Shown here: positions 19,358-37,270 of the stretch, piece after piece
Layout of the letters: every line of letters starts with the position of its first letter
Numbering within the stretch: the first letter of the stretch is position 1
Origin: Candidatus Nitrosopumilus salarius BD31
GTDB lineage: Archaea > Thermoproteota > Nitrososphaeria > Nitrososphaerales > Nitrosopumilaceae
Reading direction: 5' to 3'
DNA: 43,032 bases
Assembly: GCF_000242875.2 (NCBI RefSeq)
Contig: NZ_AEXL02000098.1
Location: forward strand, 1-43,032
The notes under the pieces: generated by a model
What the model saw: the letters and a program-made list of their open reading frames with translations, nothing else
Told to the model about the DNA's origin: nothing
Databases searched by the model: none
Translations under genes and position numbers: made by a program

Positions 19358-20012
19358 TTAGCATAAATTCTGATACAAATTATATTCAGAAAAAACATCC
19401 CCCATCGCATATTTGTAGAATAGTGAATCCGATGAACCTCCATCTTTTATAAAATCATCAAATGCCTTCATTATTGCCATACCACCCGCAATTCGATTTA
19501 GAGCCAAAGTATAAGAGAAATTGTAACCCCATCCAAGATCAATATTCCATTTTTTAGCTCCTTCTTTTGCTAAATCAATAACATTTGGAAGAGTTTTTGA
19601 ATTGTTCTGCAGAATCATCCATGATATTTTTGTGAGAACAGTCTATTCCAACTGCATCACATATTTCAACTAGTCTTGGTCGTTTTTTACCAATTTTTTC
19701 TTTAATAGGAATTAAATTTGACATTTCACTAATATCTAAAATTTGTTCAGAAGGAATTTCAATATCTAAAAACTTGTTTAAGAAGGGGACATCAAAATTA
19801 CGTATGTTGAATCCAACAAAAGTGAATCCTTCATTTATTTTTGACTGAATGATTTTTTTACCTTCAGTGAGTGGACTATCAGTTGAACCATCATAAAACA
19901 AATTTTGGTTTGATCCATCATTGAGTTGAACTGAAATAATTCGTTTGTTATCATTCATTATATCATATCCAAGATTCTCAGTTTCAATATCCAATACCAA
20001 AGTTTTATCCAT
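19358..20012 (-). pseudogene. DEDD-type 3'-5' exonuclease, frameshifted
   Basis: The N-terminal part (from ATG 20012: MDKTLVLDIETENLGYD) has exonuclease motif I (DIET) and motif II (VGFNIRNFDVPFL), the signature of DnaQ-like exonucleases and of DNA polymerase B exonuclease domains. The frame breaks after EQFK in an A5 tract (plus-strand T5 at 19594-19598). With one A fewer it continues as TLPNVIDLAKEG and ends at 19358, giving 217 residues. The second piece includes NRIAGGMAIMKAFDDF, which may carry motif III. It is either a pseudogene or a sequencing slip. Confidence 0.65.
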
Positions 20013-20056
20013 AAGAATATCATTACAATGATAGAAGATATACTTTGGGAAAGAAT

Positions 20057-20446
20057 ATGAAAATTTATTATGCACATGCCATGCCAATTTACGGTACAAA
20101 GACAGAGATGAGAGAAAAAGAACATATCATGAGAAATCTCCCTGAGATAGAAATTGTAGATCCGGGTTCATTTCAAGACAATCTGGAAAAACAAAAAGAG
20201 GGTATGGAATACTGTTTCAAATTAATTGAGAAATGTCAAGGAGTAATTTTTACAAAATTCTTTAATTATATAACAGCAGGAGTAGGTAAAGAAATCAATT
20301 ACGCATTATCAAAATCAATCCCAGTTCATGAGTTAGAAAGAGGAAAACTCTATAAAATAACCAAGCCGGTAAAATATCTCAACAGGCTAGACACAATCAT
20401 ACTATATAGAAAAATTAGAATGGTTCGAAAGATTCTCAAAGAATGA
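20057..20446 (+). CDS. Nucleoside 2-deoxyribosyltransferase-like protein
   Basis: 129 residues from ATG 20057. MKIYYAHAMPIYGT at the N-terminus, then a VDPG motif, then CQGVIFTKFFNYITAGVGKEINYAL. This is the layout of the nucleoside deoxyribosyltransferase-like (DUF4406-type) Rossmann family, in which a KIY.A..M loop and a late G(V/I)..E....A helix build the nucleotide pocket. Relatives are common in viruses and defence islands, where they handle nucleotides or NAD-like substrates. It is divergent from the exonuclease and the only plus-strand gene within the array. The substrate cannot be given. Confidence 0.6.
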   Translation: MKIYYAHAMPIYGTKTEMREKEHIMRNLPEIEIVDPGSFQDNLEKQKEGMEYCFKLIEKCQGVIFTKFFNYITAGVGKEINYALSKSIPVHELERGKLYKITKPVKYLNRLDTIILYRKIRMVRKILKE

Positions 20447-20472: not shown

Positions 20473-20685
20473 TTAATCAAGGTCAAAATTACAATTCATG
20501 CAATATAATTGTCCATTAGATGCCCTATCTTGCATCTTTTTTGGATGTTTACAATTAGGAATAAGTTCACTTCTTATTGCCTCCAAATTTGAAATTGTGA
20601 CTTTATCCGCATTGAAGAGTAATTTTGATACACCCATTGCTTCATCAAGGGCATCATAATTCCATTCTTTTCTAAGTTGTTCCAT
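20473..20685 (-). CDS. Small zinc-binding protein
   Basis: 70 residues. A helical N-terminal half (LRKEWNYDALDEAMGVSKLL) precedes a small zinc-ribbon-like end: NCKHP, then GQLYCMNCNFDLD. It is 133 nt downstream of the DrmC-like gene on the same strand and could be the last gene of the defence operon. Function unknown. Confidence 0.5.
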   Translation of the reverse strand: MEQLRKEWNYDALDEAMGVSKLLFNADKVTISNLEAIRSELIPNCKHPKKMQDRASNGQLYCMNCNFDLD

Positions 20686-20818
20686 TGTTTGTTTTTTATG
20701 TCCAATCCAAAATTTTTATTGCTTTTTTAATAGTCATAAAAAATATAATTCATCAATGTATTTTCCATTATGGGATTATCAAATAACCATTACTCTGAGA
20801 ATCAACTCAATTTTTAGA

Positions 20819-21679
20819 TTACAAAGTAAAACTGAAGTCTTTAGATACAGGTTTAGAATTAGACCAAAATATATCAAAGAAATCATACCAAAATTCAGCT
20901 TGACGTCCAGTAGTTAAATATCCAGATTCACCATTACTTAGAAATGAAGGAGAACGGATTTCTCCACTTCCAACATATGCATATTTTTTATCAACAATCA
21001 TTAATTTTTGATGAATCCCTTCATAATGTAATTTATTTAAATGAGAATCAGAAACTTCTTCTCCAAAATCACGAATTTCCATAAATGCATTAGGGTTTGA
21101 TTGGTATTGGTCAAATAATTCATATAATTTTAGAACCGCTTTAATTTTTTTTGTGTGTGTATTATTATATGATTTTTTTACTAAAACATCTCTAGTAAGA
21201 ATTTTGAAAGAAACACCACGAGAAGCACTATCTATTAATTCATCAAGGATATATGCAATCCCATCAATTTCAATAAAAGGAGATGCAATCAATACTTCAT
21301 CAGATGCAGAATTTAATAATTTTTTGAAAACATCTTTCAATTCAATAATATTTAAATCCGAATAATTCTTTTTAAGAGAAATCAATTTTTCGTGCATAGA
21401 TAAAGGCAAATTAATTACTGTAGAATCTTGTAAAGATGAAATTATTTCAGTTTTTTTATTTAGTCCTAAAAATTCTTTAATTTTATCCAAATCTTGTACA
21501 ACATAATTAATTCTTGTTCCTATTTTTTCAGATTTTACAAAACCAGCGCTGACTAAATAGTTCAGGAGGAAATTAATGCTTTCACGATCATCAGAAGAAA
21601 CATTATCTAATTCATTACCAATTTGACCATTTTTTTCAAACGTGTCCACAACCCACTGGTTAAGTTTTTCACTATTCAT
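20819..21679 (-). CDS. drmC: PLD-family nuclease, DrmC-like (DISARM)
   Basis: 286 residues from ATG 21679 (GTG 21688 is possible). The N-terminal 90 residues look like a winged-helix domain. The rest has the phospholipase D fold: SDEVLIASPFIEIDG, then one HxK(x)4D motif at H223-K225-D230 (HQKLMIVD) followed by the usual YAYVGSGE strand. DrmC of DISARM and DpdK of bacterial dpd clusters are PLD proteins of this size. It overlaps the DUF1998 gene by 8 bases (ATGAATAG), the same order A-B-C as in DISARM. A single HKD motif implies a dimeric active site. The name is inferred from fold plus gene order. Confidence 0.75.
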   Translation of the reverse strand: MNSEKLNQWVVDTFEKNGQIGNELDNVSSDDRESINFLLNYLVSAGFVKSEKIGTRINYVVQDLDKIKEFLGLNKKTEIISSLQDSTVINLPLSMHEKLISLKKNYSDLNIIELKDVFKKLLNSASDEVLIASPFIEIDGIAYILDELIDSASRGVSFKILTRDVLVKKSYNNTHTKKIKAVLKLYELFDQYQSNPNAFMEIRDFGEEVSDSHLNKLHYEGIHQKLMIVDKKYAYVGSGEIRSPSFLSNGESGYLTTGRQAEFWYDFFDIFWSNSKPVSKDFSFTL

Positions 21680-23453
21680 CAGAATCACTTAAAATTTCAA
21701 ATAATTTTGCACTCAAAGTTCTGTCTAACAAAGAATTTGCTGGAATCCACCTAGAAATTTCATTTGGTAAATAAGGCTGACAATTAAAATCATTGATAAA
21801 TATACATGCGATGCAGGAGTCGGAGCATTTTTGTGAGCATGATTTTAAATTATGCTCAGTTAATCTAAGCAATCTTTTGAATTCAGTTGCATTTGAAGAT
21901 TTTGTTATTTGAGTAATACCGCCTATTCCAAGGTCTCCTCTTTCATACAAAATTATACATCCATCAGAAATCAAAATTTTACTACCAAAATCTTCTAGAC
22001 CAGTAATTTCCATTAATGATGACAATAAAGCATGTTCGATTGAATGAAGTAGTGAAATTAAAGGTAAATTGCTTTTATTTTCAATTAAAGTTTGAAAGTT
22101 GGATTGTGTTGCAAAACTAAGAGTATTATTTGCTAAATCATCATAAGAATCCTCAGTTATAGAATTGGTTTGTTTCAAAAGTTTAATAATTTTCTTTTTA
22201 TCAAGAGAAAGAACTAATCCTCTACCTTCAGTTTTGACAACATATGCATTGTATGTATCTCCCGATTGAAATAATCGTGCCATTCGTTCATTGTCAGGAA
22301 TCACTACAGGATGAGAAGAAACCGCAGATTTGTAACCATAAATTACTGTCAGCGTAGTGATTTTTGGAACTGTGAATGATTTTTCAATTCCATATTGCTC
22401 ATGAATTATTTTAGTTTCAACATCGTGAAGATCATTTAGACTCCAGCTATCAGAATCATCATCCTTACTATCTTCATAGGATTTATTTAAAATACTACAA
22501 GAGACATTGCTGTTGCCTAAATAAAGATAAGTTTTGATCATAGGAGAAGTAATAGAAGGAGCTGATGTTACTATAGGTTTCATTATAGAAGGTTTTCCAT
22601 CATAACCGACATCAGGATCTTTTCGGATGTGACATTTACAAAACTTATCTACAGTTTCTTTGAAATTACAGGTTTCACATTTCCAATATGAGTTCAAAAA
22701 AGAACCATACATATGAAAATGCATATGCCCAGAACAAGAGTCCTTGCTTTGACAAGGAATTGAAGAACCTTGCACTTCAGATAATCTAGCCATCCTAGGA
22801 GTCAATTCCTCTAAATTGGCACATCTAGGACAAGCAAAAACATATGAAAATTGGTTTAAAGAATTCTTTTTAATTGGGTTATCACATTCAGAGCATTTGC
22901 CATCAACATGAGGCATAGGTTTTTGACAATCCCCACAAAAACCTTCATTACAACAAGGACAAGTAAGTTTAGGGTTTTGAGGGTTCACCAATTCATAATG
23001 TCCACATTTAAAACATCGAAAAGATAATGGGAACACAGATGAATCCAATCTTGTGTTTTCATTAATATAAAATAAATTAATTTGTGAAGGATTTACAGTA
23101 TAATTTACAATATCATCAGAAGTTTTATCAATAACTTGAGGTTGTTCGCCAAGCATTTCTTTCAGTTGTTTATCAATATCGGTATTTTCTGAAAAAATGA
23201 TTTCTTGTTTAGTGTCTTTAGCAAATTTGTTTGCATTATTTTTTTGTTTTTCAAAATAATGGCGTTGTAATTGGTTTTTACAATCAGAGATTTCTTTTGC
23301 CAATGCTTTTAAAATTTCTTTATCAGGATGTTCTTCAACAATTCCAATAATTTTAGATGTTCGTAATGTAACATTATCACTTGTCCAAACTGCACCCTCA
23401 TAATTTTTAAAAAGAACTTGCCATTCGGTTAAATCAGGTATTTCATTCATCAT
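21672..23453 (-). CDS. drmB: DUF1998 protein, DrmB-like (DISARM)
   Basis: 593 residues from ATG 23453. After a charged coiled N-terminus there is a Cys-rich zone (residues about 155-285) with at least six CxxC knuckles (FRCFKCGHY, CPCCNEGFCGDC, CSECDNP, ACPRCANL, CETCNF). The C-terminus matches DUF1998: LHSIEHALLSSLMEITG, then IILYERGDLGIGGI, then a CSQKCSDSCIACI cluster. DUF1998 proteins such as DrmB accompany DrmA-type helicases. It overlaps the helicase gene by 11 bases and the PLD gene by 8, so the three are translated together. Expected to act with the helicase in sensing or processing invading DNA. Confidence 0.82.
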   Translation of the reverse strand: MMNEIPDLTEWQVLFKNYEGAVWTSDNVTLRTSKIIGIVEEHPDKEILKALAKEISDCKNQLQRHYFEKQKNNANKFAKDTKQEIIFSENTDIDKQLKEMLGEQPQVIDKTSDDIVNYTVNPSQINLFYINENTRLDSSVFPLSFRCFKCGHYELVNPQNPKLTCPCCNEGFCGDCQKPMPHVDGKCSECDNPIKKNSLNQFSYVFACPRCANLEELTPRMARLSEVQGSSIPCQSKDSCSGHMHFHMYGSFLNSYWKCETCNFKETVDKFCKCHIRKDPDVGYDGKPSIMKPIVTSAPSITSPMIKTYLYLGNSNVSCSILNKSYEDSKDDDSDSWSLNDLHDVETKIIHEQYGIEKSFTVPKITTLTVIYGYKSAVSSHPVVIPDNERMARLFQSGDTYNAYVVKTEGRGLVLSLDKKKIIKLLKQTNSITEDSYDDLANNTLSFATQSNFQTLIENKSNLPLISLLHSIEHALLSSLMEITGLEDFGSKILISDGCIILYERGDLGIGGITQITKSSNATEFKRLLRLTEHNLKSCSQKCSDSCIACIFINDFNCQPYLPNEISRWIPANSLLDRTLSAKLFEILSDSDE

Positions 23454-26400
23454 TATCACCAGTTATAGATATTTCATCTAATTCTTCTTCAGGGAAAGTC
23501 ATCCATGGGGGAAGATATTGAGATTGAATTAAACTTAATAATCTATCATCGTCAACATGTACTTTGATTTCTTTATTTTTGTTAGCTCGTAATGTAGTAA
23601 GAGAATTACCATGACTCAAAAACCACTCACTCAAATAATGACCTGGTCCACTAAGTTTCCTCCATTCAGAAACAAATTCATTATATTCAGTCTTTGCTTG
23701 ATTAGCAATTTGTAAATTAACAGAATTCGGAGCAAAAACATCATCACGTAAACATATTAACAAATCATACAGTAATCTTTGTTTTAGTTTAGGTTGAGTA
23801 ATTAATGCTCTATTAATTGAGGGAGCGGTTAAAAGATATTGATAATAACTAATGATGTTTATTAAAAATTTTAAAATATTTGGAAAAATTAATTTAGAAG
23901 CATATGCGTTTGTGCTTTGAATAGGTTTTCTTTCATAATAACCACTTACATCAGAAAAGATTCTATGAAAATTTTCATAGACAAATACATCTCTTGGAAC
24001 AGATGGAAGTAAATGGATATTGACATGACCAGGAGTATTTTTTCTTCCTGTACGTCCTGCAGTTTGTGAAAATTCAGTCATACTTTTTGGCATGCCCATC
24101 ATTATCATATTATTCAAATTTCCAATATCCAATCCTAATGAAATAACCAGATTTGCCAGCAGAATATCAATTTCTTTATTTATTGCACGTTGGAAAAGTC
24201 TTGAAACTTGAGTTGTAGAGGCATCACCACTTAGAAATTCAATGGATTTATTTTCATTGAATATTTGACCAAATAGCTCTTGTAATGACTTTCTAATAGT
24301 ATATCCATCACTTTTACGGTACACATAACCAAGCAAGAAATTATATGCATCACCAACTTTGTTTGTTAATTTTGAACTAAAATTTGGGTCATGATATATT
24401 GCATTGTATGTTTTCATCATAGAATTAGACATCGAAGTTCGAGAAGAGCGAGCTACAGGTAATTGAACTACAGTTCTATATTTGATAAGGCGAGGTTTGG
24501 GTTCAAAATAAGAAGAATATGATGAATTTTCAGGGATGGTGATGATTTTATCTGATTTCATTCTTGTAATACAACAAAGTAACTCACTTTCATTAGCAAT
24601 AGTTGCAGTTCCTGTTTCAAAGGTTATTTGAAATGGGAGAGGATCACGAACATCCCACTTTTGAATTTTATTTGAAATGACATTTAGACTTCTTATGTAA
24701 ATCGATAGAAGTATTCCTGTCAAACCATAAAGGGAATGTACTTCATCAAAAACCAAATATCCAATAGGTGAACTTTGTTTTTTCTTTAAATCTAATGATG
24801 TGCCACATGCTTTACAAGATAAGGTAGTGAATTTATCACCTAATGCAGGAGCATGATATCCACAAGAACATTTAACAAAATGCCCACCAAAAAACCTCAT
24901 AGTATATTGTTCAAATCTTGCAGCAGTTGAATTATAGAACATGTTATCAGGAGTAGCTATTGTAATCAAAGGTAAGTAATCACCAGATTCTTTAGGTGAA
25001 AACATGTAAGAAATCTCATGACCACATGAACATTTTCCAATGATTCTGTGGTTACTTTCTTTGGCAAGAATAGAATTTCTTTTTCCACATGATGGACAGG
25101 CGTCAAATTGAACCATTTGTTTCCCCACAACAGGATTTGCCAAAGCCTTAAACAAAGGATCAAAAAGTCCAATGTAGATTCCACCTGTAACGTCAGGAGA
25201 TTTAAGTAATTGTCGAATTTCATATACAAATTTTGTAAGTCGCTGAAACATATCTTGATTAAGAATCCTAGTAGGGAAAATCAAAACAGACCTCTGCTTA
25301 GTAATTATAGAATGTAATGCAGCATTAACCATAAACACCAAAGTTTTTCCTGACCCAGTAGGCGCTTTAATAATAGATGTTGTTCCAAATTCATCATTAG
25401 CGATTTGTTTAATCCTGTTTTGTATTGAATCCCATTGAAATTTAAAAAAGGATGTATCTACATTGAAAGATTTTGAGGCAGCTAAAATAACATTTCTTAT
25501 TAGACCGACAAGATTTTTTTGTTGTAAAATTTGTTTGTCATTTATAGAAAGTTGGTTCAAAGAATCCAAAAAAGATTCATCAGATTCTAACACATCTAAA
25601 CTTGCTCCTAAAACAGGAATTTCTCTAATAGTATCAAAAACTCCAAATGTTGAAAAACAGAGAGTATTTTTTTCTTTAACAGATGCAGTCAAAACACCAT
25701 TAGTGTTTGAATATGGATTTTTATCGAATTCTTCTGCTAAAGAATCTTCACCATTTTTTAATACATGTTGTAATGATTCAAAATGTTGTTGAGGAGGTAA
25801 AAGTAAATCCCCATTAGAAATTTTAGTTATAATAAAAGGCATAAGAATACATCTTTTTGTCCACTCAGAAGTTCTTGGAGGGCTGGAAGAATAAGAATTT
25901 GCATTTAAAAATTCAACACCTATTTTAAAAACATCATTTTGGTTTGTTTTAGAAATAGAAATTTCTAAAGTGGTTTTTGTATCACCAGTTATTAATTCAA
26001 TAAAACCTATAGAAGTTTTATCTGGATCACATTTTTGAGTGGGTTCATAATCTAAGGCATCCATAGAAGTTTGATTAATTTCATTTAAAGTATCAGTATT
26101 TGCATCATATTTTTTAATTACAGAGATTGAATCAGTAGAATTAGCAAGATCAATTTGTTTTGGATTATTCTGTAATAATTCATTTAATGAAAATTCAACA
26201 TCATGTTCAAACAATTTTGGTTCAACTGTTTTTGGTTTAAATTCACTATCAAAATTTAGACCATATGTTTTTCCAAATAGATTAACATTGCCAAACGTAG
26301 GAGGTAAGTTAACTTTAGGATTACTTACACTATGAATTATTCGTACATGACTTGATTTTTCGCCAGAGACAAATCGTCTTTCTCCATATCTGATGAATCT

Positions 26401-26700
26401 AGGAACAGCATATCTGATTTTTAATTTGATTTTTGTCTCAGAACTTCCCTTAACGAGAAATTCATAAAAAATATGAGGAGGAAATCTCCAGACTTGATTT
26501 AATTTTAACCGATATAATTGAGGAGGGACTAAATAATTAGCATCAAACGCATTTCCTAAAGATTCATTTTCAACATAAGAAGAATCAATTATCTGTCGTT
26601 TTGACATTAAATTCAATGTTTCCTGATCATCAGAAGCGGGAGATATGTGGTCTAAAATCTCATCCATCCAAGGTTCCAAATTAGTATTAGTCACAAACAT
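23443..26700 (-). CDS. drmA: Superfamily 2 helicase, DrmA-like (DISARM)
   Basis: 1085 residues. The first 430 residues form a beta-rich domain (PPQLYRLKLNQVW, PRFIRYGERRF) seen before the motor in DrmA-type proteins. The motor is complete: Walker A APTGSGKT at 446-453, DEVH at 652-655, TGTAT as motif III, and QTAGRTGR at 879-886 (motif VI). Zinc knuckles are inserted between motifs (CPSCGKR with CSCG, then CSCG with CKACG). The size and the downstream DUF1998 and PLD genes fit DrmA of DISARM; DpdJ-type helicases of dpd islands are the other option. The start is 2 nt after the stop of the 638-residue gene. Confidence 0.84.
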   Translation of the reverse strand: MFVTNTNLEPWMDEILDHISPASDDQETLNLMSKRQIIDSSYVENESLGNAFDANYLVPPQLYRLKLNQVWRFPPHIFYEFLVKGSSETKIKLKIRYAVPRFIRYGERRFVSGEKSSHVRIIHSVSNPKVNLPPTFGNVNLFGKTYGLNFDSEFKPKTVEPKLFEHDVEFSLNELLQNNPKQIDLANSTDSISVIKKYDANTDTLNEINQTSMDALDYEPTQKCDPDKTSIGFIELITGDTKTTLEISISKTNQNDVFKIGVEFLNANSYSSSPPRTSEWTKRCILMPFIITKISNGDLLLPPQQHFESLQHVLKNGEDSLAEEFDKNPYSNTNGVLTASVKEKNTLCFSTFGVFDTIREIPVLGASLDVLESDESFLDSLNQLSINDKQILQQKNLVGLIRNVILAASKSFNVDTSFFKFQWDSIQNRIKQIANDEFGTTSIIKAPTGSGKTLVFMVNAALHSIITKQRSVLIFPTRILNQDMFQRLTKFVYEIRQLLKSPDVTGGIYIGLFDPLFKALANPVVGKQMVQFDACPSCGKRNSILAKESNHRIIGKCSCGHEISYMFSPKESGDYLPLITIATPDNMFYNSTAARFEQYTMRFFGGHFVKCSCGYHAPALGDKFTTLSCKACGTSLDLKKKQSSPIGYLVFDEVHSLYGLTGILLSIYIRSLNVISNKIQKWDVRDPLPFQITFETGTATIANESELLCCITRMKSDKIITIPENSSYSSYFEPKPRLIKYRTVVQLPVARSSRTSMSNSMMKTYNAIYHDPNFSSKLTNKVGDAYNFLLGYVYRKSDGYTIRKSLQELFGQIFNENKSIEFLSGDASTTQVSRLFQRAINKEIDILLANLVISLGLDIGNLNNMIMMGMPKSMTEFSQTAGRTGRKNTPGHVNIHLLPSVPRDVFVYENFHRIFSDVSGYYERKPIQSTNAYASKLIFPNILKFLINIISYYQYLLTAPSINRALITQPKLKQRLLYDLLICLRDDVFAPNSVNLQIANQAKTEYNEFVSEWRKLSGPGHYLSEWFLSHGNSLTTLRANKNKEIKVHVDDDRLLSLIQSQYLPPWMTFPEEELDEISITGDNDE

Positions 26701-26702
26701 GT

Positions 26703-28619
26703 TTAATCCTCAATCTTGTATGCTTCAATATAGAACTCTACCTCTTTAACTGATCGCCCAGTTTTGTCAACGATTATTCTATCAATTCTCTTCACACGAG
26801 GTTCCATAAAAGCAAATTGTCTAGAAACAAAATTTGCAACATAATGTGCTTTTGGTACCCATCTACCTCTAGATTTTACACATGATTGTCCAAATTTTCG
26901 AAAGATATTTCTGGAATGGTTAATGTAAATTTCTTTATCTTTTTTCCCAACTAAAGTTTCTTGGAAATTTTTAGAGTCCGTTGACACATTTAGAATAAAG
27001 TTAGTTCGAGACTTATTTCGATTAATGATTTGTTGTTTATGATATTTTTTGGTAGAAGCAACAAAATCAAAAATCACGTCAATATTTTTTAAATTGTCAT
27101 GTAGTTTGTCTTTCAAGTTTACAGGTATTGAATAAGATAAAGGATGAATTAAGGATAAATTTTCACGCATTAATGACCACAAGACATACCAACGTTCCCT
27201 AAAAATTTCACGAGTTGGTAATAATGAAGGGTCATCCATAATACTCAAAAGAAAAGAATATTGTTTTTTAGTTAAAGCATTATATTTATAATAAAAAGTA
27301 TTATTTTTTTCCAATACATCATCATCATTCAATAATGAAGACATCTGATTATCAAAATTAATTTCATGAAATAAACTAACAAATTTTTTTAAAATTTTGT
27401 TATCCACATATCCAACATATTTTATTAACGCAAGAATATTTTTTAGAATAAAATCTTCTTTTTTGATGAATCTAAATGATATTCCAGATACAGAGGAAAA
27501 ATCTACATCATCTCTTGAATTATGTTTATTATCTAATAAATTTTTTAAAACGATACTCAAATATCCATTTTTGGAAATTTTATGAATTTCATCAGAATTT
27601 TTTTCATAAGTATCAAAATCCCAAGATAATTTGAATATATTTCCAAAGAAGTCTTCTACAATCATACATGGAATTTTTCCACTATAATCTATAGGCTCTA
27701 GAATTTTTACATAGGTAATAAAAAATCTACTTAAATTATCTGAACCTCTCCACTCCTGTAAATCTAAAGTAAAACTATCTAAATAACACATATCTCTCAA
27801 AATTTTTTCAATTGTAGGAATTCCCACGATTGTTCGTAAACAAGTTTCAATGAATTCATGGGAGGTATCTTCAAAGAAGATTTCATTCTTTTTACCAGTG
27901 TTTTTCAATTTCCCAAGAAATGGGAATAAACGCCATTTTTGTAATCGGGTTTTTTTAAATCGAATTTTGTTTGGATCTAGTTCACCAACAGATTGATTAT
28001 ATGGTGCAAGGGTCGTTTGAAGATGTACAGGTAATTCAAAATTTGGTAAAATGAGTGAAAGTTCATTTGAAGTCCAATGACCTTGAAATTTCTTAGATTT
28101 TCCAGATAAAAGTAAACTTACAATATCAGAAGGTACAGAAAAATTGTCCATTTGTTTCCAATCAAAATAATTTACTAATTTTTCAGTCAAAAAATCATAT
28201 AATATATCATCAAATGATGAAAATTCTTTTTTAAAAATTGAATCTAAAAGTTGTTTAACTTCGGGTTTAGAAATTTTTTCAGTGTTTTTCATAAGTAATG
28301 CTAATTGTAATTCTTCAATTTCAGACTCTTTTTTTAAAAATTCACTATAAAGAATTTTTAATAATTCAGATATTTCAGATTGCAATATTTTAGATTCATC
28401 ATCGGGGTTTTGGTCAGTGTCAGAACTTTCAATTGAAATCATCACATTTTTTTTTGACATGATGGATTGCAACGTAGAAAATTTTGAAATAGGGACAGAA
28501 ATTTTCCCTTCAAATGTAATTACGCCTTCAATATCCATTATTTCAAAATATTCATCGGATTGAAAATGAAATTTATGTGAATTAATCATCACATAACCAG
28601 ATTCTTCTACACATTTCAA
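26703..28619 (-). CDS. Unrecognised 638-residue protein of the defence array
   Basis: 638 residues if read from TTG 28619. No motif is recognised: a mixed N-terminal domain, a coiled stretch around 85-125 (SEISELLKILYSEFLKKESE), a helical middle and a conserved-looking basic C-terminus (SRGRWVPKAHYVANFVSRQF, then RVKRIDRIIVDKTGRSVKEV). The frame stays open upstream to 28797 with protein-like content (YFVIFRNGWIVRK, RSPYYF) but no start codon, so the true N-terminus may be longer. It lies 2 nt before the helicase gene and so is part of the same translation unit. Its position is that of accessory subunits such as DrmE or DpdG/H, but similarity cannot be shown by eye. Confidence 0.7.
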   Translation of the reverse strand: MKCVEESGYVMINSHKFHFQSDEYFEIMDIEGVITFEGKISVPISKFSTLQSIMSKKNVMISIESSDTDQNPDDESKILQSEISELLKILYSEFLKKESEIEELQLALLMKNTEKISKPEVKQLLDSIFKKEFSSFDDILYDFLTEKLVNYFDWKQMDNFSVPSDIVSLLLSGKSKKFQGHWTSNELSLILPNFELPVHLQTTLAPYNQSVGELDPNKIRFKKTRLQKWRLFPFLGKLKNTGKKNEIFFEDTSHEFIETCLRTIVGIPTIEKILRDMCYLDSFTLDLQEWRGSDNLSRFFITYVKILEPIDYSGKIPCMIVEDFFGNIFKLSWDFDTYEKNSDEIHKISKNGYLSIVLKNLLDNKHNSRDDVDFSSVSGISFRFIKKEDFILKNILALIKYVGYVDNKILKKFVSLFHEINFDNQMSSLLNDDDVLEKNNTFYYKYNALTKKQYSFLLSIMDDPSLLPTREIFRERWYVLWSLMRENLSLIHPLSYSIPVNLKDKLHDNLKNIDVIFDFVASTKKYHKQQIINRNKSRTNFILNVSTDSKNFQETLVGKKDKEIYINHSRNIFRKFGQSCVKSRGRWVPKAHYVANFVSRQFAFMEPRVKRIDRIIVDKTGRSVKEVEFYIEAYKIED

Positions 28620-28951
28620 ATTAATTGTAGATGATGTTGGAAATGAATGAATAGTAGAATTTGCATTTTTTGAACCAATAGAAATTAGATTGTTTTTTTT
28701 AATTTGAAAATAATAAGGAGATCTTTTTCGATGAACTTTTCTAACAATCCATCCATTTCGAAAAATAACAAAATAACTCTGAGAACCGTCTTTTTTTTAT
28801 ATTTAAAAAAAACCCATTTTCGGTTTGCAGGATCAAAAAAATTGCCACATATCATTTTCTGAACATTTCAATGAAAAATAGGTGTCAAAATCAGGTGGAT
28901 TTATCATAAGTTATGAATTACCAGTTCAACTCCTATTCAAGTATTTTCAAG
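28620..28951 (-). other. 332-base gap: probable coding extension and A/T-rich leader
   Basis: From 28620 to 28796 the minus strand is open in the frame of the 638-residue protein. An ATG at 28817 is in the same frame but separated by two TAA codons lying in T8/A8 runs (net-zero length changes would join them: M-G-F-F, then K-D-G). From 28818 to 28951 I see only A/T-rich spacer behind the dpdA-like gene. Confidence 0.4.
28797..28806 (-). promoter_or_regulatory. TATA-like element upstream of the 638-residue gene
   Basis: TTTAAATATA on the minus strand, flanked by T8 and A8 runs, fits the archaeal TATA consensus. It would start transcription near 28775, inside the open frame upstream of TTG 28619. 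A second transcription unit for the Drm-like genes may therefore start here, separate from the que/dpd genes. Confidence 0.45.
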
Positions 28952-30378
28952 TTATTTTTTTGAAAGCCAAATCTTTGTACTATGTAGTTTTTGACCAATC
29001 TTTCCTTTAGTAGTCTTTACAACACATTTCTTTGGGAGAACATTATCAATACCATCAAACAAACAGAGGTAATCTTTTCCCATAGATAGCATTACTTCAT
29101 TGTAATTTTCATTTTTTGTAAATTTTTCTAATTTAATTAGAGTTTTCTTTTGAAGTGTAGGAATCTGGTCAGATGAAAGGCGTTTATCATAATTTGTTAT
29201 TTGTTGTGTAGGACGAATTAATCCATATTTTGCAGATACTATCAATAAATCTACTCCATTATAGTTAAAGGGTTTATGTTTTCGAATCATCCTAAACATC
29301 GGTCCATCATACATCTCCACAGCAGGCATACGATTCATTTCTATTTTTTTACGTTGAGAACAAGATACAACAAGAAGTTTTTTTGGTTTCATAAGACTGT
29401 AGATTTTTTTATGTAAGAAACGATTTACTTCTTCAAATCTTTCTGCACGTAATTCGTCTTCCGAATTTTTCTCTAATTGTAGAAGTTGATTTAGTTTTTC
29501 ATCATATTCTTTGTTTTTTAGTCTCTTCGAAATTTTTTTCTTATATTTTAAAAGTTCTAAAAATTCTTCATGAGCATCATCGGTATCCAAATTATGAAAT
29601 TTATTTTTAGAAAGAATAGTTTTTAGAGGTTTAACAAAATTTTCCTCTTCAATTTTTTCTAAATGTTTTATCAATCTTCCACGTTTTTCTGCAGGATTTT
29701 TATAATTGAATATCCACCCCTTAAAATCGGCACCAAAAATTTTATATTTTTTTAGTAACGCATAGCGCTTTGAATGGAAGCAACCTAGCAAAAATAACCA
29801 ATCTTTAGGATATTTTGAGCGAATTTCAGCAGTAACTTTTTCTAAAAAGCTTTCATTTCGTACAGTTACAAATCGGGCAGTGTTTTCTTTTTTTGCCAAT
29901 AACCCCCCTATTGCAATATTCTTGTAACCCATTCTTTTTAGAGAACGATAACATTCAAGGTATTCTTTAACAGTTTTTCCTTGAGCAACCCCAATTAATT
30001 TGAATGACCTTTTTTTCTTTTTGTATTCTTTGATTGCATTTTTTTGCACTTTGAATTGTTTTCTTTTTATTTTTTAAAACATCTAAAATAATCCCATAGT
30101 CAGTTCCCATCTCTTCATATTTTTCAAACAATTCAGAATAATTTTTTGATAAACCACCATCTTTTGTAAAAATTCCAGAATCAGTAATTTTTACAATATT
30201 TTTACCAGTAAATTTTTTGAATGCTTTTCTAAAAATTAGGAGTAGAATTTGCATTTCCCATCAAACCAATTGGAGAAGATTGTCTGTGAACACCACTATA
30301 TCTCAATAATTCAAGGGATTTTTGTCTGTCAGCTACCAAGAAAGGAATAGGATTTTTGGGTAAATTACCTACTACCAT
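28952..30378 (-). CDS. dpdA: DpdA-like DNA 7-deazaguanine transglycosylase with DUF6884-like tail (two frameshifts)
   Basis: Three overlapping pieces of one gene. ATG 30378 opens FLVADRQKSLELLRYSGVHR and stops at TAG 30229 in a T5 tract. The next frame carries KITDSGIFTKDGG and breaks in an A7 tract (30039-30045). The third runs to 28952. Removing one base from each tract gives 474 residues. The TGT barrel is clear: DSG at about 66-68, VAQG near 132, IAIGGLL near 158, and FGADFKGW with D217 at the nucleophile position. DpdA enzymes replace guanine in DNA with preQ0. The last 140 residues (LLVVSCSQRKK, EMYDGPMF, LLIVSAKYGLI) look like DUF6884. queD and queC lie directly upstream. A tRNA-TGT is unlikely because PUA and zinc-site features are absent. 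Confidence 0.78.
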
Positions 30379-30421
30379 GTACTGAGGTGAGATCTAGTCT
30401 TTATAACCAAATCGAATGAGA

Positions 30422-30775
30422 TTACTTTTCAACAATACACCATTTTCCATTACCTTCATAGAATTTTACTGAAGAGAGAGGGATTTTATCTTCAAGATTT
30501 TCAAATATCCATCCTGCAATATTTTCAGATGTAGGATATTCAAACATAGTATTCAAGTCATTGTGATCTAGTTGAGAAATTACATTCCAACATTGAGTTT
30601 TCATATCAGCAAAATCCATAAGCATGTTATCTTGATATGTACTGCCTTTAACTAAATCACCCATAATTTCAACTTGAATTCTAGAAGTATGCCCATGTAG
30701 TTTACCACATTTAGGATGTCCTTTTAGAATATGTGAAAAATCAATTTCAAATTCTACACCTAGTTTAGTTTTCAT
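30422..30775 (-). CDS. queD: 6-carboxy-tetrahydropterin synthase
   Basis: 117 residues, the usual length. Zinc ligands H15, H27 and H29 (in KLHGHT), catalytic C23, and the D70-H71 pair (LDHND) are all present. PTSENIA and the final VKFYEG Glu also match. QueD converts 7,8-dihydroneopterin triphosphate to 6-carboxytetrahydropterin, step two of preQ0 synthesis from GTP. It lies 4 nt after queC and 43 nt before the dpdA-like gene. QueE and a GTP cyclohydrolase are not in the window and are presumably supplied by the host pathway for archaeosine. Confidence 0.92.
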   Translation of the reverse strand: MKTKLGVEFEIDFSHILKGHPKCGKLHGHTSRIQVEIMGDLVKGSTYQDNMLMDFADMKTQCWNVISQLDHNDLNTMFEYPTSENIAGWIFENLEDKIPLSSVKFYEGNGKWCIVEK

Positions 30776-30779
30776 AATA

Positions 30780-31445
30780 TTACTCAGAATATTCAGTAGG
30801 GTCAGTCACGTTTGCCTCTTTAAAAGCAGTTTTTCTCTCTCTACACGCACTACATCTACCACAATGCCTATGTTTTCCCTCATAACAAGACCAGGTTAAT
30901 TCAAAAGGAACGTTTAGAGAATGACCAATTTTTACTACTTCAGATTTTTTAATTGTAGCAAAAGGTGATGAGACAGAAGCATCATCATCACCTAAAGATA
31001 GTTTGGTCATATTTTCAAATGCGGAGATAAACTCCTCTCTACAATCAGGATACATCCCTCTATCAGAATAATGTGCTGCAAAGAAAATATTTTTTGCTCC
31101 AATACTTTGAGCATATCCTGCACCAATAGATAGGAAAATTGCATTTCTGTTTGGGACAACAGTTGTTTTTAATGTTTCATAAAATTGTGCACTAGAAGGA
31201 ACAGCTGGAATAGAAATATTGGGATTAGTTAAGGCAGAATCAAGTACAGTTTGTAAAGGAGACAGATCAATTACTTTATGTGAAAGAGTTAGGTTTTGAC
31301 ATATTTCTTTTGCAGATTCAGATTCTTTACAATGTTTTTGACCATACAAAAAAGTCATAGGAAAAACTTCATGACCTTCATGTTGTAATTTGTATAATAG
31401 AGTAGTACTATCTAAGCCACCAGAGAAAATTAAAATAGATTTCAT
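30780..31445 (-). CDS. queC: 7-cyano-7-deazaguanine (preQ0) synthase
   Basis: 221 residues. The PP-loop SGGLDST at 8-14 binds ATP. The four-Cys zinc site is C187, C195, C198 and C201 (HCGRCSACRER). VPNRNAIFLSIGAGYA and the YPDCREEF motif are diagnostic. QueC turns 7-carboxy-7-deazaguanine and ammonia into preQ0, the base that DpdA-type enzymes place in DNA. Its start overlaps the RHH-zinc gene by ATGA. As archaea normally carry queC for archaeosine in tRNA, this island copy is probably an extra one dedicated to the adjacent DNA-modification gene. Confidence 0.93.
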   Translation of the reverse strand: MKSILIFSGGLDSTTLLYKLQHEGHEVFPMTFLYGQKHCKESESAKEICQNLTLSHKVIDLSPLQTVLDSALTNPNISIPAVPSSAQFYETLKTTVVPNRNAIFLSIGAGYAQSIGAKNIFFAAHYSDRGMYPDCREEFISAFENMTKLSLGDDDASVSSPFATIKKSEVVKIGHSLNVPFELTWSCYEGKHRHCGRCSACRERKTAFKEANVTDPTEYSE

Positions 31446-31762
31446 TTGACTCGGCCTCCAATTAAATCCTCATAGACTTTACGCATGTAGAAAACTGCGC
31501 CTGATGTTTGTTCAGTTAATTTACAACTACAATTTTTACATTTAGTGCATTTAACAAAACTACATTTTGGACAAACCTTAGCTTTACTGACATAAAATTT
31601 TTCACCACATGAAAAGCAGTAAAGATGAGGGTCACCTACATAATGTAAGAAAGATTCAACGATCCTTGATCGAGGAATATTTTTTTCTTTAAGAATTTTT
31701 TCAGACTTTTTAATTACATCTTCATCAATGTTTAAGGTAACTTTGACTTTACCATTTGCCAT
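31442..31762 (-). CDS. RHH-type N-terminus fused to zinc knuckles
   Basis: 106 residues. Residues 5-42 (VKVTLNIDEDVIKKSEKIL, then IPRSRIVESFL) fit a ribbon-helix-helix DNA-binding domain. Residues 49-80 carry many cysteines in pairs (CFSCGEKF, CPKCSF, CTKCKNCSC), enough for two zinc sites. It overlaps queC by 4 bases. A regulator of the array or a DNA-targeting adaptor for the modification enzyme are both possible. Confidence 0.65.
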   Translation of the reverse strand: MANGKVKVTLNIDEDVIKKSEKILKEKNIPRSRIVESFLHYVGDPHLYCFSCGEKFYVSKAKVCPKCSFVKCTKCKNCSCKLTEQTSGAVFYMRKVYEDLIGGRVK

Positions 31763-31790
31763 AATGTTATGTATTTTTATGTACTATTAT

Positions 31791-32090
31791 TTAAGATGAT
31801 TTTGTATATTTCTTGATCTCATTTGGAGCCAATAATCGAAATCCAGATTTCCCATCAAAATGAAATTGAGGATTACGTTCAAATCTTTTGGATGCATCAT
31901 GTCTATTTCCAGGATGATTTACACAATGAAAGATGGTTTGTAGGCGTAAAGTCATCTTGTTTACGTCATCAGACGGAAATTCTATCTTTACACGAGAAGA
32001 GATTTCTTTAAGATCAGCATATTCTTGGGAATCGTTGTTTTGAAAAGTGTCTACAATCATTTGCCAAACAGGTTTAGAATATTTTGACAT
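31791..32090 (-). CDS. Small HTH-like protein (DUF7669-like)
   Basis: 99 residues from ATG 32090 (GTG 32093 precedes it). KPVWQMIVDTFQNND, then LKEISSRVKIEFP, then LQTIFHCVNHPGN and a GKSGFRLL end. This is the pattern of a small winged-helix domain often attached to restriction enzymes or modification systems, where it reads DNA. It lies 28 nt before the RHH-zinc gene in the same direction. The assignment is from pattern and context. Confidence 0.55.
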   Translation of the reverse strand: MSKYSKPVWQMIVDTFQNNDSQEYADLKEISSRVKIEFPSDDVNKMTLRLQTIFHCVNHPGNRHDASKRFERNPQFHFDGKSGFRLLAPNEIKKYTKSS

Positions 32091-32128
32091 CACAAAGATT
32101 CAGAAGTTCTAGAATTAATCTTTTCAGG

Positions 32129-33115
32129 TTAATAGTATCGGGTGTCTTCTAATGGTATCAATAATCTAGTTTTTTTATCACAGAATTTGTGAAAGGGGCA
32201 TGCGGTTTCATCGGTTAGACAAATAGGATTGTTTTCTTCACATTTTGTTCTATTTCCCCAAATCATGTTGTCAATATAATCTCCAGGAAGTTTAGTTTTT
32301 TCCATTATTTCAAACAATGCAGATAAACCAGCTTTTCTAATATCTAGAGCATCAGAATTATCCAACAAGTGATAATGTTCAAGTTTATTTTCAATCTCAG
32401 AATTAGTTGTAATAACACCCAGTCTCAATAACTGTTTGAGTATTTGGTAATCAATTCCAGGAATTATGGGTTGATCAAAAGTCACTAATCCCCTTCCTTG
32501 ATGCATAATTGCATTAACCATAATCATTTTACATATTGGGTCATCAAATGCTCTAAACGTTTTCAAGGATTTTGTAAATTCAACTAGAGAGTTTTTGCAA
32601 TGATGTAACAAATTAATCATATTTCCATCCCAGCAATCATTTAGTTTTGTTGCCAAATCAATCCAATTTCTATGTCTTTCTTCTAGTAAAGGTAACACAT
32701 CATTTCTAGAATCATCTTGGAAAATCTTTCTAAATTCATCAAATGTTATTTCAGATAATTTTTTTGAATCAAGAATATCAAAGGTTCCAGAATCAACACA
32801 AGTTTTGAGACACCTCCACATGTACATTGCACCTCTAGCATCAATTCCACTTTTTTTTCCACTAGAATAGATTAATTCAGAGTTATTTTTTGACCAATAT
32901 TTGAAATTTATTGAATTACCTAAAGTAAAGAATTGTGAAACAAATTCATCAGATTCTGTTTTTGGCAACCAAAAATTATCATCAATCCAATCATAGCCTT
33001 TGTGAGTTTGACTCAATTCTAAGAGAGACGAACTAAGCAATTCTACTTTAGATTCATTTACTTGGAATTTTGGTGAAAATTCGACGTTAATTCCAAGATC
33101 ATCAAGCAGAGTCAT
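32129..33115 (-). CDS. Q-salvage (DUF2419/QNG1)-like protein with C-terminal Cys cluster
   Basis: 328 residues. Residues about 60-290 follow the queuosine-salvage family order: WIDDNFWLP, FKYWSKN, MYMWRCLKTCVDSG, LSEITFDEFRKIFQD, LPLLEERHRNWIDLATKL, FDQPIIPGIDYQILKQLLRLG, DIRKAG. In eukaryotes QNG1 removes queuine from its nucleoside or nucleotide with a DNA-glycosylase-like fold. The tail adds four cysteines not typical of QNG1: C292-x6-C299-x6-C306-x5-C312, similar in spirit to the Fe-S cluster of endonuclease III. First gene of the que/dpd array; it may act on deazaguanine nucleotides or DNA. Confidence 0.6.
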   Translation of the reverse strand: MTLLDDLGINVEFSPKFQVNESKVELLSSSLLELSQTHKGYDWIDDNFWLPKTESDEFVSQFFTLGNSINFKYWSKNNSELIYSSGKKSGIDARGAMYMWRCLKTCVDSGTFDILDSKKLSEITFDEFRKIFQDDSRNDVLPLLEERHRNWIDLATKLNDCWDGNMINLLHHCKNSLVEFTKSLKTFRAFDDPICKMIMVNAIMHQGRGLVTFDQPIIPGIDYQILKQLLRLGVITTNSEIENKLEHYHLLDNSDALDIRKAGLSALFEIMEKTKLPGDYIDNMIWGNRTKCEENNPICLTDETACPFHKFCDKKTRLLIPLEDTRYY

Positions 33116-33138
33116 AACAGATTACCCATGTGTGAAGT

Positions 33139-33149
33139 TTTATAATTTA
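33139..33149. promoter_or_regulatory. Shared TATA element of two divergent leaderless genes
   Basis: TTTATAATTTA reads as a TATA box on both strands. It is centred about 26 nt before the TTG at 33170 (plus) and about 29 nt before the ATG at 33115 (minus). It is the likely main promoter of the defence array. Confidence 0.55.
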
Positions 33150-33169
33150 GGTTTGAAATAGAATTAACC

Positions 33170-33718
33170 TTGGCAGAAGAACCAACTCGCAAAGATTTTT
33201 TGATAAAAATGTACGAAAGTAGTTGGAATAATGTTAGTCGTGCAGAGGATTCATTATGGAAAATTTTTGCAGCATATACAGCATTATTTGCAGGTTTAGG
33301 AATAGCCATAGACACCATAGGAGTATTTGGATTCCTATTCATCATGACAATCTTCAGTTTTGCAGGAGTTATCTCATCATTGATTACAAATAGTTGGTTT
33401 GTACGTAATATGGGGATCATATCAAATATCGAAAAAGAATTTTTAGAATTTACAGATACAGAAGTAATTCCAAAAATATGGATGTCTGGAAAAGTGTCAT
33501 TTCTTAATAGAGAAAATTGGTGGATTACAATTGCATTGTTTTTTGCAGTTATAGTTGGAATACATATTATTTTACTATCAGAATTAACATGGGAGGAATT
33601 TGTGAAATTAATTACTCTTGACGTAGTAGGATTAATTTTTGTAGGAGGATACTGGATATATTTAACAAAGGCTCAAAATGATTTTGAAAATCAGGCACCA
33701 GGAAAAACAATTACGTAG
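33170..33718 (+). CDS. Four-helix membrane protein next to the defence array
   Basis: 182 residues from TTG 33170, chosen because TTTATAATTTA lies about 26 nt upstream. There are two membrane hairpins (FAAYTALFAGLGIAIDTIGVF with LFIMTIFSFAGVISSLI, and ITIALFFAVIVGIHIILL with LDVVGLIFVGGYWIYL) joined by a cytoplasmic loop of about 50 residues. The N-terminus YESSWNNVSRAEDSLWKIF resembles SLATT/RipA-like small membrane proteins common in defence islands, but only loosely. It is divergent from the first gene of the array, so it may belong to the system. Confidence 0.62.
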   Translation: MAEEPTRKDFLIKMYESSWNNVSRAEDSLWKIFAAYTALFAGLGIAIDTIGVFGFLFIMTIFSFAGVISSLITNSWFVRNMGIISNIEKEFLEFTDTEVIPKIWMSGKVSFLNRENWWITIALFFAVIVGIHIILLSELTWEEFVKLITLDVVGLIFVGGYWIYLTKAQNDFENQAPGKTIT

Positions 33719-33915
33719 AATAAGCATTCTGCCAGATAAATCATTAATCAGAGATTTTAACCAATCAGATAACTCCCCTTAAGAGAAAAATGTTCAAACC
33801 TTGACAGATTTGCACATACAGAGACGTTGACCCTGAAGATATTCTCCTTCAGAGATTTATTGTAAATCTATTAGAAATGATTCAATAATAGTTCTCAACT
33901 AGAATCCTTCTATAC
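33719..33915. other. Spacer between two membrane-protein genes
   Basis: A/T-rich with no ORF. Short complementary stretches (ACCAATCAGATAACTCCCCTTAA) do not form a convincing terminator. I see nothing further. Confidence 0.3.
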
Positions 33916-34554
33916 ATGACATTGTACATCATAAGAGAAGTTTTATCAAAACCAAATATTGCATTTGAGAAAATATCGCAAAATCCACGATATTTCAGAC
34001 TATCTGTGATTTTGTTTAGTCTTGCATGTTTTACCTCATTTTTTGCTGAAATATCGGAATTATTCTTTCAAATATCATATGGTCTCAGAGAACTTCCAAA
34101 CTTGATCCATTATGTAGTAAATTTTGGTGGAATTGTATTGAATAATTTTGTAATTATTTTGATTATTTTTTACATTGGGAGAAAATTAGGTGGCAGTACT
34201 AGTTTTAGACAAATATTCACAAGTATGTCGTTTTGTTTGATTCCTGTCATTATCGGTACAATGACATTGGCATTGAGTACTTTTCTCTACTTTTTTAGCA
34301 TTCCCTCATTTGATGAGTTATCTACATCATATGCATCAACTTTTATGTTTTCTCCACCCATGTTGAGCAATTTTATCATCATTCCATTTTTTATTTGGTC
34401 GATTATACTATATTTCAAATCAATAAAAATTACAAATAATTTTACAAATCTCAAGACAATTCTTACTTTGGGCTTGGCATTTCTTTTAATGTATTTGGAA
34501 TCAATGTTTTATGATTTGACCACAAGTATTCCATTACAATTTCTGTATCACTAG
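33916..34554 (+). CDS. Yip1-domain membrane protein
   Basis: 212 residues with about five membrane helices after a cytoplasmic start in which PNIAFEKISQNPRYF matches the Yip1 family opening (P..AF..I...P). Helices include LSVILFSLACFTSFFAEI, GIVLNNFVIILIIFYIG and FIIIPFFIWSIILYF; the middle has the FRQIFTSMSFCLIPVIIG stretch also typical of Yip1 proteins. Archaeal members have no assigned function. Upstream A/T-rich DNA gives no clear TATA box. Confidence 0.7.
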   Translation: MTLYIIREVLSKPNIAFEKISQNPRYFRLSVILFSLACFTSFFAEISELFFQISYGLRELPNLIHYVVNFGGIVLNNFVIILIIFYIGRKLGGSTSFRQIFTSMSFCLIPVIIGTMTLALSTFLYFFSIPSFDELSTSYASTFMFSPPMLSNFIIIPFFIWSIILYFKSIKITNNFTNLKTILTLGLAFLLMYLESMFYDLTTSIPLQFLYH

Positions 34555-35000: not shown

Positions 35001-36200
35001 TTATAATTTTTCTTTTTCTTGTAATTCTTTAATGTAGTTAGGATCTGAGAACTTTTTTGCTTGTTCCTCAAATAGTTTGACAACTGAACTCTCCCAATCT
35101 TTGTCTCTATTTTTTAGATTATTTTGCAGTGTTTGTATCGTACTTTCAAGCTCTTCTATCTTTTGTGTATTTTCTTCTAGTTCTGAGATTTTCTTGCTCT
35201 GCTTGTCTATTTTTATCTGATTTCTAAAGTCCTCGCCGATTGTTATCTTTGGCTCAAGCTCAATGTATTTCTCTAATCTGTCCTCGTTGCTGAGTCGATA
35301 ATACTGTTCCATGTATCCGCTGTGTCCTATCAATGCATGAGCATATTCCAGTCCATGGGTGTTTGATGCTTGTGTCTCAAAAAATGCCCTAAAAGAATGC
35401 AAAGTTATCTTGTGTACTGTAGAGTTGTCATATTTTGTGTCAAGTTCTGTTTTTTTCCTCAAATGTCAGAAATTCAGTATTTCTCTGTCAACTGCCTTTC
35501 TGTTGTCTTTGTTTGTGGTAAAAACCAAGTCGTCCTGATTCATTCTTTTAATTATTGGTAAAAGATAGTGTTCAGCTTCCTTTGAAATGTAGGTCTGCCT
35601 TTCAGTGTTTTTCTTTGTGAGTTTTGCAGGAATTGTAATTCGTATTCTTTCTTGCGAAAAGTCAAAATCTCGCTTTTTTAGCCCCATTGTCTCACCAATT
35701 CGCATTCCTGAGCTAATTAGAACAGTATACAGTGCTTTTCTCTTCGGTTTTGAATTGTCAACTAGTTTTCTAATTTCTGCAAGGGTTAGGGCATGTCTCA
35801 TGTTTTTTGGATCCTCTGGTAGTGTAATGTCTCGTCTTAGATTGTAGTGGTTTATCCTCAACTGGTGATATGAAAAATACTCTACTACTGTCTGGTAATA
35901 TGCAACTGAGGTGCTTGCCTTTGAATCCTCGTGTTTCCAGTGGAGATACTTTTGAAACAAGTCAATCATCACTGATTCATGTCTTGACTCTGGAAGTTTC
36001 TTGATGTCCTCAATTACTTGCTCTGTGGAGTCTTTTCCAAACTTTGCAAACGCAAACTTGTCAAAGCTATGCAGTGCTCCCTTGCAAAAGTCAACAGTAC
36101 TAGTAGACTTTGACTTGTTGAACTTGTTTGTAAGGAATTTATCTCTGGATCTCAACACATTGAGATATCCTAACTCGTCAATTCTTTCACGTTCAATCAT
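35001..36200 (-). pseudogene. Tyrosine recombinase (integrase) with in-frame TGA
   Basis: Two pieces in one frame, split by a single TGA at 35466-35468 (NF, stop, HLRKK). The N-terminal piece has a SAM-like core-binding domain (residues about 33-120) and the first catalytic Arg, R167 in SSGMRIGE, plus the Lys-bearing beta hairpin. The C-terminal piece has HSFR (about H268, R271), GHSG (H293) and the nucleophile Tyr in YMEQYYRL (Y300 or Y301). A coiled coil (KISELEENTQKIEELESTIQ) follows. All catalytic residues survive, so only the stop is disabling. The family resembles thaumarchaeal/crenarchaeal XerA-like or viral integrases. It marks the right side of the island; the sense-to-stop change may be real or an error. 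Confidence 0.8.
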
Positions 36201-36260
36201 ATGGTATGATAGTACGATCGCAGTATAAAAGAAAACCTAACCCTTTAGAAAATCACAAGG

Positions 36261-37079: not shown

Positions 37080-37270
37080 GGCGTTGGTTTCTTTCGTGAA
37101 CAATTAATACTTTCCCACAACTTTTTTTTAAAAAATTAGGTTGCACTAATAATTTTACTTTATGTCTACATGTGTAGAAGTAGGAAAATTATGTACGTTA
37201 TAGAAATTTTTTCTCCTAAAACATCCAAATATCAAAAATTTATAACCAAACCAAAAGGAATTTCATTGTA

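Follow-up and report, generated by a model that had tools for sequence, protein, structure and literature searches.

What does a DISARM-like helicase and nuclease core do when the genes beside it are those of 7-deazaguanine synthesis and insertion in place of a methyltransferase? Such a locus lies in Candidatus Nitrosopumilus salarius BD31 (genome G000), and we analysed the 43,032-nt stretch that carries it (contig NZ_AEXL02000098.1, positions 1–43,032, forward strand), referred to below as the window. In the list of open reading frames (ORFs), ten closely spaced genes form one minus-strand run from 33115 to 20819, reading Q_salvage protein, DUF7669-like, DUF6364-like, QueC, QueD, DpdA-like, a protein that we call X, DrmA, DrmB and DrmC. 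Judged from sequence and predicted folds, the run is probably a restriction-modification-like defence operon in which a DISARM-type effector, made up of the helicase DrmA, the canopy subunit DrmB and the nuclease DrmC, is combined with a self mark of the Dpd type. We favour this reading because the coupling is kept in a second archaeal phylum, because the transglycosylase has an affinity to DpdA, and because the genome holds a separate arcTGT and a second QueC.

Evidence for a DpdA-type marker

Genes were assigned from Pfam, PADLOC and NCBIfam profiles, and the PADLOC search proposed in an earlier annotation of the locus (the original prediction) returned matches to DrmA, DrmB, DrmC and DpdA. 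QueC and QueD carry the SGGLDS and C-rich motifs and the CxxxHGH motif, respectively, and both identities hold as first proposed; QueE and FolE were absent among the run ORFs scanned. The next gene had been described as a DpdA-like TGT paralogue. Its DpdA affinity stands, but it is not one open frame, and it is fused to a DUF6884 half. Three pieces in three frames (30375–30214, 30233–29997 and 30073–28961) align to an intact relative, P0145 (472 residues, open frame), and a separate profile search likewise splits the gene into three. The last piece matches the PADLOC models for DpdA at 1.6e-9 and DpdC at 1.1e-5, and P0145 matches DpdA at 3.5e-12. The second half is DUF6884/YaaA-like (PF21818, 1.1e-13; also a PF03883 domain), with weak matches to DpdC models (1e-5, PADLOC). 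The motifs DSGxF and GxDxKGW are present in 11 of 11 aligned relatives.

The enzyme could instead act on tRNA or another RNA, its Drm neighbours being incidental or themselves RNA-directed. Its fold is of the tRNA-guanine transglycosylase type, and the rows shown in the structural alignment are tRNA enzymes, including arcTGT (1iq8). Sequence profiles, however, favour DpdA: in a PDB profile search at E 0.1 the sole sequence match was 7ui4, the DNA preQ0 insertase DpdA (E only 0.0041), which was also the best Foldseek match to the predicted fold of P0145 (pLDDT 83). A search of the organism's own genome with Pfam TGT (PF01702) hit only contig C64, the site of a canonical arcTGT, and missed the island gene; the corresponding Heimdallarchaeota protein (locus L040, see below) reached E 0.15 and 11.5 bits, below the cut-off of 26.3. 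On C149 the genome has another QueC match over the full length, with 34% identity to the island QueC, so that the island QueC and DpdA are extra copies. PADLOC, the PDB profile search and Foldseek support a placement of the gene closer to DpdA than to tRNA enzymes, and we regard an RNA substrate as improbable.

Drm effector genes and the search for a methyltransferase

The DrmA-like helicase and the single-HKD phospholipase D-like (PLD) protein of the original prediction were both recovered. Among the best 25 of 54 PADLOC families, the helicase scored 249 bits with the best DrmA model; the best DpdF model reached 33 and DpdJ 21. The protein has Walker A, DEVH and QTAGRTGR motifs, and its PDB profile matches include YprA/MrfA and DrmA 7s9v; matches to Druantia DruE are weak, in a model set that is without ARMADA. 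DrmC has one HxKxxxxD motif, with the HKD at residue 226. NCBIfam scores are far below the curated cut-offs for DrmA (51.9 bits, cut-off 950), DrmC (22.3, cut-off 133) and the dpdA product (31.9, cut-off 200), which marks all three as divergent members. The protein named as DUF1998 matches no Pfam model, DUF1998 included, but its identification as DrmB follows from the PADLOC match together with its similarity (E 1e-39) to an annotated DUF1998 protein beside DrmA in Haladaptatus DYSN1.

No methyltransferase scored above the Pfam cut-off in the 11 ORFs scanned, the rest of the genome not being covered by this search. When stop-free stretches of at least 60 codons in all six frames of 20473–33115 were scanned for [DNS]PP[YFW], PC[QN] and FxGxG, there was a single match, a PCQ in the DrmB frame; the earlier statement that no methyltransferase motif is visible was right in substance, with this one exception. 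DrmD and DrmE gave no PADLOC match among the matches listed for 10 run ORFs and the relatives P0001 and P0004 (for DrmA, the best 25 of 54), and DpdB, D, E, G, H, I and K were never the best PADLOC match of any run ORF scanned.

Gene X had been read as encoding 638 residues (26703–28619, from a TTG start), a reading that proves truncated. The seven homologues found have 725–747 residues, the Heimdallarchaeota protein has 761 and is 28–32% identical to the others, and the family profile covers 26706–28901 in the window with three internal stops. An Alba fold at the C-terminus was recognised in the relative P0001. In G373, another genome of the window's family, a 436-residue ORF (L031, 1198–2508) corresponds to X in its N-terminal part and lacks the remainder.

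Coupling of marker and effector in other genomes

The neighbourhood of marker and effector could reflect two independent defence modules, one of them a deazaguanine marker of unknown purpose and the other a DISARM core that discriminates by different means; DISARM can act through DNA structure rather than a mark (PMC9142583). What speaks against independence is the tight spacing of the genes, both in the window and in a Heimdallarchaeota locus with a different gene order. A scan of genome contigs with a DrmA alignment, which uses short patterns so that absence means little, gave 54 pattern matches and from these two confirmed loci, one in a Heimdallarchaeote (L040) and one in an Anaerolineales genome (L041); an earlier contig scan with DrmA alone gave 13 pattern matches, none of them confirmed. 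In L040, X, DrmA, DrmB, DrmC and DpdA are contiguous, PADLOC recognises DrmA, DrmB, DrmC and DpdA, and drmC and dpdA (492 residues, or 489 by the database) overlap by 4 bases or lie 5 apart, depending on the start chosen.

Surveys of related genomes point in the same direction. A search of 227 genomes from the Heimdallarchaeote's phylum found DrmA in one (E 1e-30) and DpdA in 17 (E 1e-20); 16 of these DpdA matches touch the DUF6884 part only, and the single match to the transglycosylase part is in the same genome, on the same contig, as DrmA. Of 400 genomes searched in the window's class, three had a DpdA match (E 1e-10), only G000 had its transglycosylase part and a full-length X, and X (E 1e-8) was found in one of 250 genomes of the window's family. 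DrmA matched 97 of 150 relatives at E 1e-3, strongly only in G000 and G129 (1.7e-63), the next matches (5.4e-9) being short and of a generic-helicase kind. Metagenome proteins add further links, as inferred from equal longest-contig size and overlapping source tags: X, DrmA and DpdA (sizes 22509 and 21355), X and DpdA (7725), and X and DrmA (30095 and 18009). In a 51-row DrmA tree, built by a quick method and with long branches present, the six rows with known or inferred X all fall into one 12-row group (support 96) without forming one clade inside it; X status is known or inferred for these six of the 12 rows. Mobile elements contributed little: viral contigs gave 186, 90 and 61 pattern matches to the X, DrmA and DpdA alignments, none confirmed; phages had no match to DpdA P0134, plasmids none to X, and 12 plasmid records matched DpdA in the DUF6884 part only. 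The sequence comparisons indicate that the marker-effector coupling is more than a chance feature of one contig and is kept in a second archaeal phylum.

Several observations nevertheless weigh against a joint function. DrmABC occurs without DpdA or X, by tblastn, in three places: in G129 (same order, neither gene within 19.5 kb), in L041, whose genome gives a partial QueC match only, and in a Haladaptatus plasmid. Of 120 DpdA relatives listed (375 found), only two linked contig sizes recur among 49 DrmA relatives; besides those two, P0057 is the Heimdallarchaeote itself and P0136 is linked to X only. With so few shared contigs, the DpdA fusion family appears, among the relatives listed, mostly without this DrmA. 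No queC or queD was found in L040 or L085, which together span the Heimdallarchaeote's contig (QueC lies elsewhere in its genome), and the second half of the L040 DpdA matches no Pfam DUF6884. The Foldseek lead of 7ui4 over tRNA enzymes is slight (E 1.8e-9 versus 4.1e-8, TM 0.37–0.41). Finally, neither dpdA nor X is an uninterrupted frame in the present assembly. Weighing the unlinked relatives against the spacing, the joint presence in one of 227 genomes and the further size-linked contigs, we consider two independent modules unlikely.

Two of these loci have other neighbours of note. In G129, about 4 kb beyond drmA, lies an ORF that contains SPPY and, on inspection by eye, looks like a methyltransferase. 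In L041, a 1015-residue coiled-coil-like protein (2–3049) precedes DrmABC in the place of X and may represent another class of partner.

Organisation of the run and its broken frames

All seven genes originally named (queC, queD, TGT paralogue, X, helicase, DUF1998-type and PLD) do lie on one strand, and three further genes head the same run (Table 1). The close spacing claimed for the last four genes is seen, by first start codons, as a gap of 2 bases between X and drmA and overlaps of 17 bases each at drmA/drmB and drmB/drmC.

Table 1. Coordinates of the run's genes and of the recombinase gene to its right in the window
Feature	Position	Strand	Evidence
Q_salvage-family protein (PF10343, DUF2419), first gene of the run	32129..33115	-	PF10343 6.2e-16; 7ugk 1.7e-5
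DUF7669-like protein, 100 residues	31791..32093	-	PF24706 4.8e-4, 20.7 bits, below Pfam cut-off 23
DUF6364-like protein with Cys pairs, 106 residues	31442..31762	-	PF19891 2.7e-7; 4-base overlap with queC start
QueC (7-cyano-7-deazaguanine synthase), open	30780..31445	-	PF06508 3.1e-67, above Pfam cut-off; TIGR00364 208 bits, cut-off 150
QueD (6-carboxytetrahydropterin synthase family), open	30422..30775	-	PF01242 8.4e-23, above Pfam cut-off; TIGR03367 78.2 bits, below cut-off 89
dpdA-like gene, transglycosylase half and DUF6884 (DpdC-like) half, three frame pieces	28952..30378	-	PADLOC; relative P0145
Gene X, family with C-terminal Alba domain, in-frame stops in first part	26703..28907	-	Family profile; relatives
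DrmA-like helicase, 1085 residues, open	23443..26700	-	PADLOC DrmA 1.6e-74; motifs; PDB profile matches
DrmB-like protein, 595 residues, open	21672..23459	-	PADLOC DrmB 6.8e-33
DrmC-like PLD nuclease, 289 residues, single HKD, open	20819..21688	-	PADLOC DrmC 3.1e-27; PF13091 1.5e-11
Tyrosine recombinase, one in-frame stop, right edge of strain-specific region, outside the mechanism	35001..36200	-	PF00589 1.2e-10 on 35466–36200; two same-frame ORFs

The breaks in dpdA and X fall between about 28.8 and 30.25 kb, in a stretch of some 1.5 kb rich in A/T runs. They could mean that the system works in relatives and that here the marker and X have been inactivated, or that the assembly contains errors in homopolymer length; either is compatible with a marked-self defence operon and concerns this copy only. 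Real decay is suggested by the tyrosine recombinase, whose in-frame stop is not at a homopolymer. On the other side, DrmA, DrmB, DrmC, QueC, QueD and the Q_salvage gene are all open. Counted by eye, breaks per A/T run of at least five were 4 of 82 in dpdA and X versus 0 of 82 in eight open genes, which is not significant (Fisher p 0.12). Open-frame coverage was 0.65 at 28.7–30.4 kb, compared with 0.87–0.93 in five other stretches of G000 and 0.70–0.89 in five control stretches of the complete genome G013; as these controls reach 0.70, the value of 0.65 is weak evidence either way.

We lean towards a decayed or mis-assembled copy. Since neither dpdA nor X reads through, it is doubtful that the system is active in this organism, and the copy may have lost its function or have been assembled wrongly. 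Should the breaks be genuine, the cell tolerates an open DrmABC in the absence of a mark, and this would point to a requirement for X in attack. The earlier proposal that a Drm effector works here with a preQ0 mark in place of a methyltransferase gains from the second phylum and from the DpdA affinity, but loses from the broken state of dpdA and X in the window.

Proposed mechanism and its implications

If the operon acts as a marked-self defence, preQ0 would be supplied by QueD and QueC, the FolE and QueE steps being assumed to be chromosomal. The DpdA half would swap guanine for preQ0 in host DNA, and the DUF6884 half would probably hydrolyse preQ0 to amido-deazaguanine. Through its Alba domain, X could act as the subunit that binds DNA and recruits the mark, the effector or both to it, and X may hold the place of DpdB in Dpd or of DrmD/E in DISARM. 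DrmAB would load on unmarked foreign DNA and DrmC would cut it. The mark might restrain DrmAB by analogy with DISARM, in which DrmAB is held in an autoinhibited state, DNA with a 5' overhang activates it, and methylated DNA lowers its ATPase activity (PMC9142583).

The opposite polarity, with the mark placed on invading DNA and DrmABC attacking marked DNA, has nothing specific in its favour, polarity not being visible in sequence; bacterial Dpd, in contrast, marks host DNA (PMC12839542), and we consider this arrangement highly improbable.

A bolder extension of the marked-self reading would place the operon in an additional class of DISARM that marks self by replacing bases rather than by methylation, with an Alba protein as the link between marker and effector. 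Discrimination could then be read through archaeal chromatin: X would bind host DNA that is coated with Alba or carries the deazaguanine mark, and would steer DpdA and DrmAB. This extension is speculative, and we think it quite unlikely. If the marked-self reading itself is right, DrmAB would be a portable effector that pairs with more than one self mark, be it methyl groups or replaced bases; the question of self and non-self in DISARM would become directly testable by swapping the mark; and deazaguanine DNA marking would extend to ammonia-oxidising and Asgard archaea.

The first gene of the run has the queuosine salvage protein 7ugk as its sole PDB sequence match, and tblastn at E 1e-3 gave no match to it in L040, L041, L084, L085 or L096–L098. 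As a member of the Q_salvage (queuosine-nucleotide glycosidase) family, its product could recover deazaguanine bases for reuse when marked DNA is degraded.

Genomic setting and neighbouring genes

In comparisons of 20-kb stretches, four genomes of the same genus align to the window only rightward from 36229 or 36261. This edge adjoins the interrupted tyrosine recombinase and a conserved gene at 36261–37103. A deaminase gene at 16638 was found in one of 17 genomes, G000 itself. Considering the synteny edge and the rarity of the deaminase together, much of the left 36 kb is probably strain-specific.

Just past the end of the operon lie a small DUF7768-like protein (20045–20446, below cut-off) and an RNase_H_2 protein (19575–20099), which are possible further island genes. 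Four ORFs within 9393–15645 (at 9393, 11226, 11601 and 14272) have similar MKT(R/K)LLII starts and look by eye like a secreted or membrane-anchored family, and a collagen-like protein with long GPP/GDKG repeats occupies 41103–42752. Rfam gave nothing in the window at the gathering score, nor at E 0.5 in 28600–36300, and a tRNA search of the window found none.

Comparison with known systems

The island resembles DISARM in having the DrmA helicase and DrmB in separate adjoining genes and a DrmC-type PLD nuclease, a component that DISARM loci often, though not invariably, carry. DISARM has DrmMI or DrmMII, whereas the run is without a methyltransferase, DrmD or DrmE match and has a deazaguanine module and X (PMC9142583). 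On a plasmid of Haladaptatus sp. DYSN1 (L096), DrmA (25% identity across 87% of the query), a DUF1998 DrmB and a PLD DrmC follow one another in the same sequence; this locus differs in a DrmD/PbeA-like helicase upstream and cytosine methyltransferases about 4 kb downstream, as well as in lacking DpdA and X.

With Dpd the island has in common a DpdA-like enzyme, QueC, QueD, a helicase of the YprA family and a PLD nuclease, together with a domain that weakly resembles DpdC (PMC12839542, PMC6884629). Unlike in Dpd, DpdA and the DpdC-like domain are in one chain, and the helicase is DrmA-like, not DpdJ or DpdF. No ORF scanned has DpdB or a member of the DpdD–DpdK restriction set as its best match. 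On another Haladaptatus plasmid (YSMS36; L098, 1441–24393), a DpdJ-like helicase, a PLD protein, a DUF6884 protein and several transglycosylase genes occur together, likely of BRIGADE or Dpd type; its 352-residue transglycosylase has no real BLASTP similarity to that of the island and matches PADLOC DpdA at 3e-6.

BRIGADE likewise joins an archaeal deazaguanine cluster to a YprA-family helicase and a PLD nuclease, and is reported in halophilic archaea only. It usually has two YprA-like helicases, at least one of them ARMADA-like, and the OB-CON-DUF1998 module inside the helicase chain, whereas the island has one DrmA and DrmB as a separate gene (PMC12458937). The BREX-related capture system (BRC), with archaeal representatives, is alike in that a transglycosylase has been recruited to another defence core; that core, however, consists of HerA/FtsK, PglZ and a STAND-NTPase, without DpdC and without Drm proteins (PMC12839542).

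No description of DrmABC with DpdA was found in the literature, most subscription papers lying outside the search, and, by a word search, DISARM, Dpd and deazaguanine are absent from the main text of two surveys of archaeal defence (PMC12988326, PMC11291487). The statement that this combination is not known to be described in thaumarchaea stands for DrmABC with DpdA within that literature, but not for the general idea: the linking of a deazaguanine mark with a different defence core has been published before, as BRIGADE in haloarchaea (PMC12458937) and as BRC (PMC12839542). By its gene content, the island fits neither DISARM, Dpd nor BRIGADE fully.

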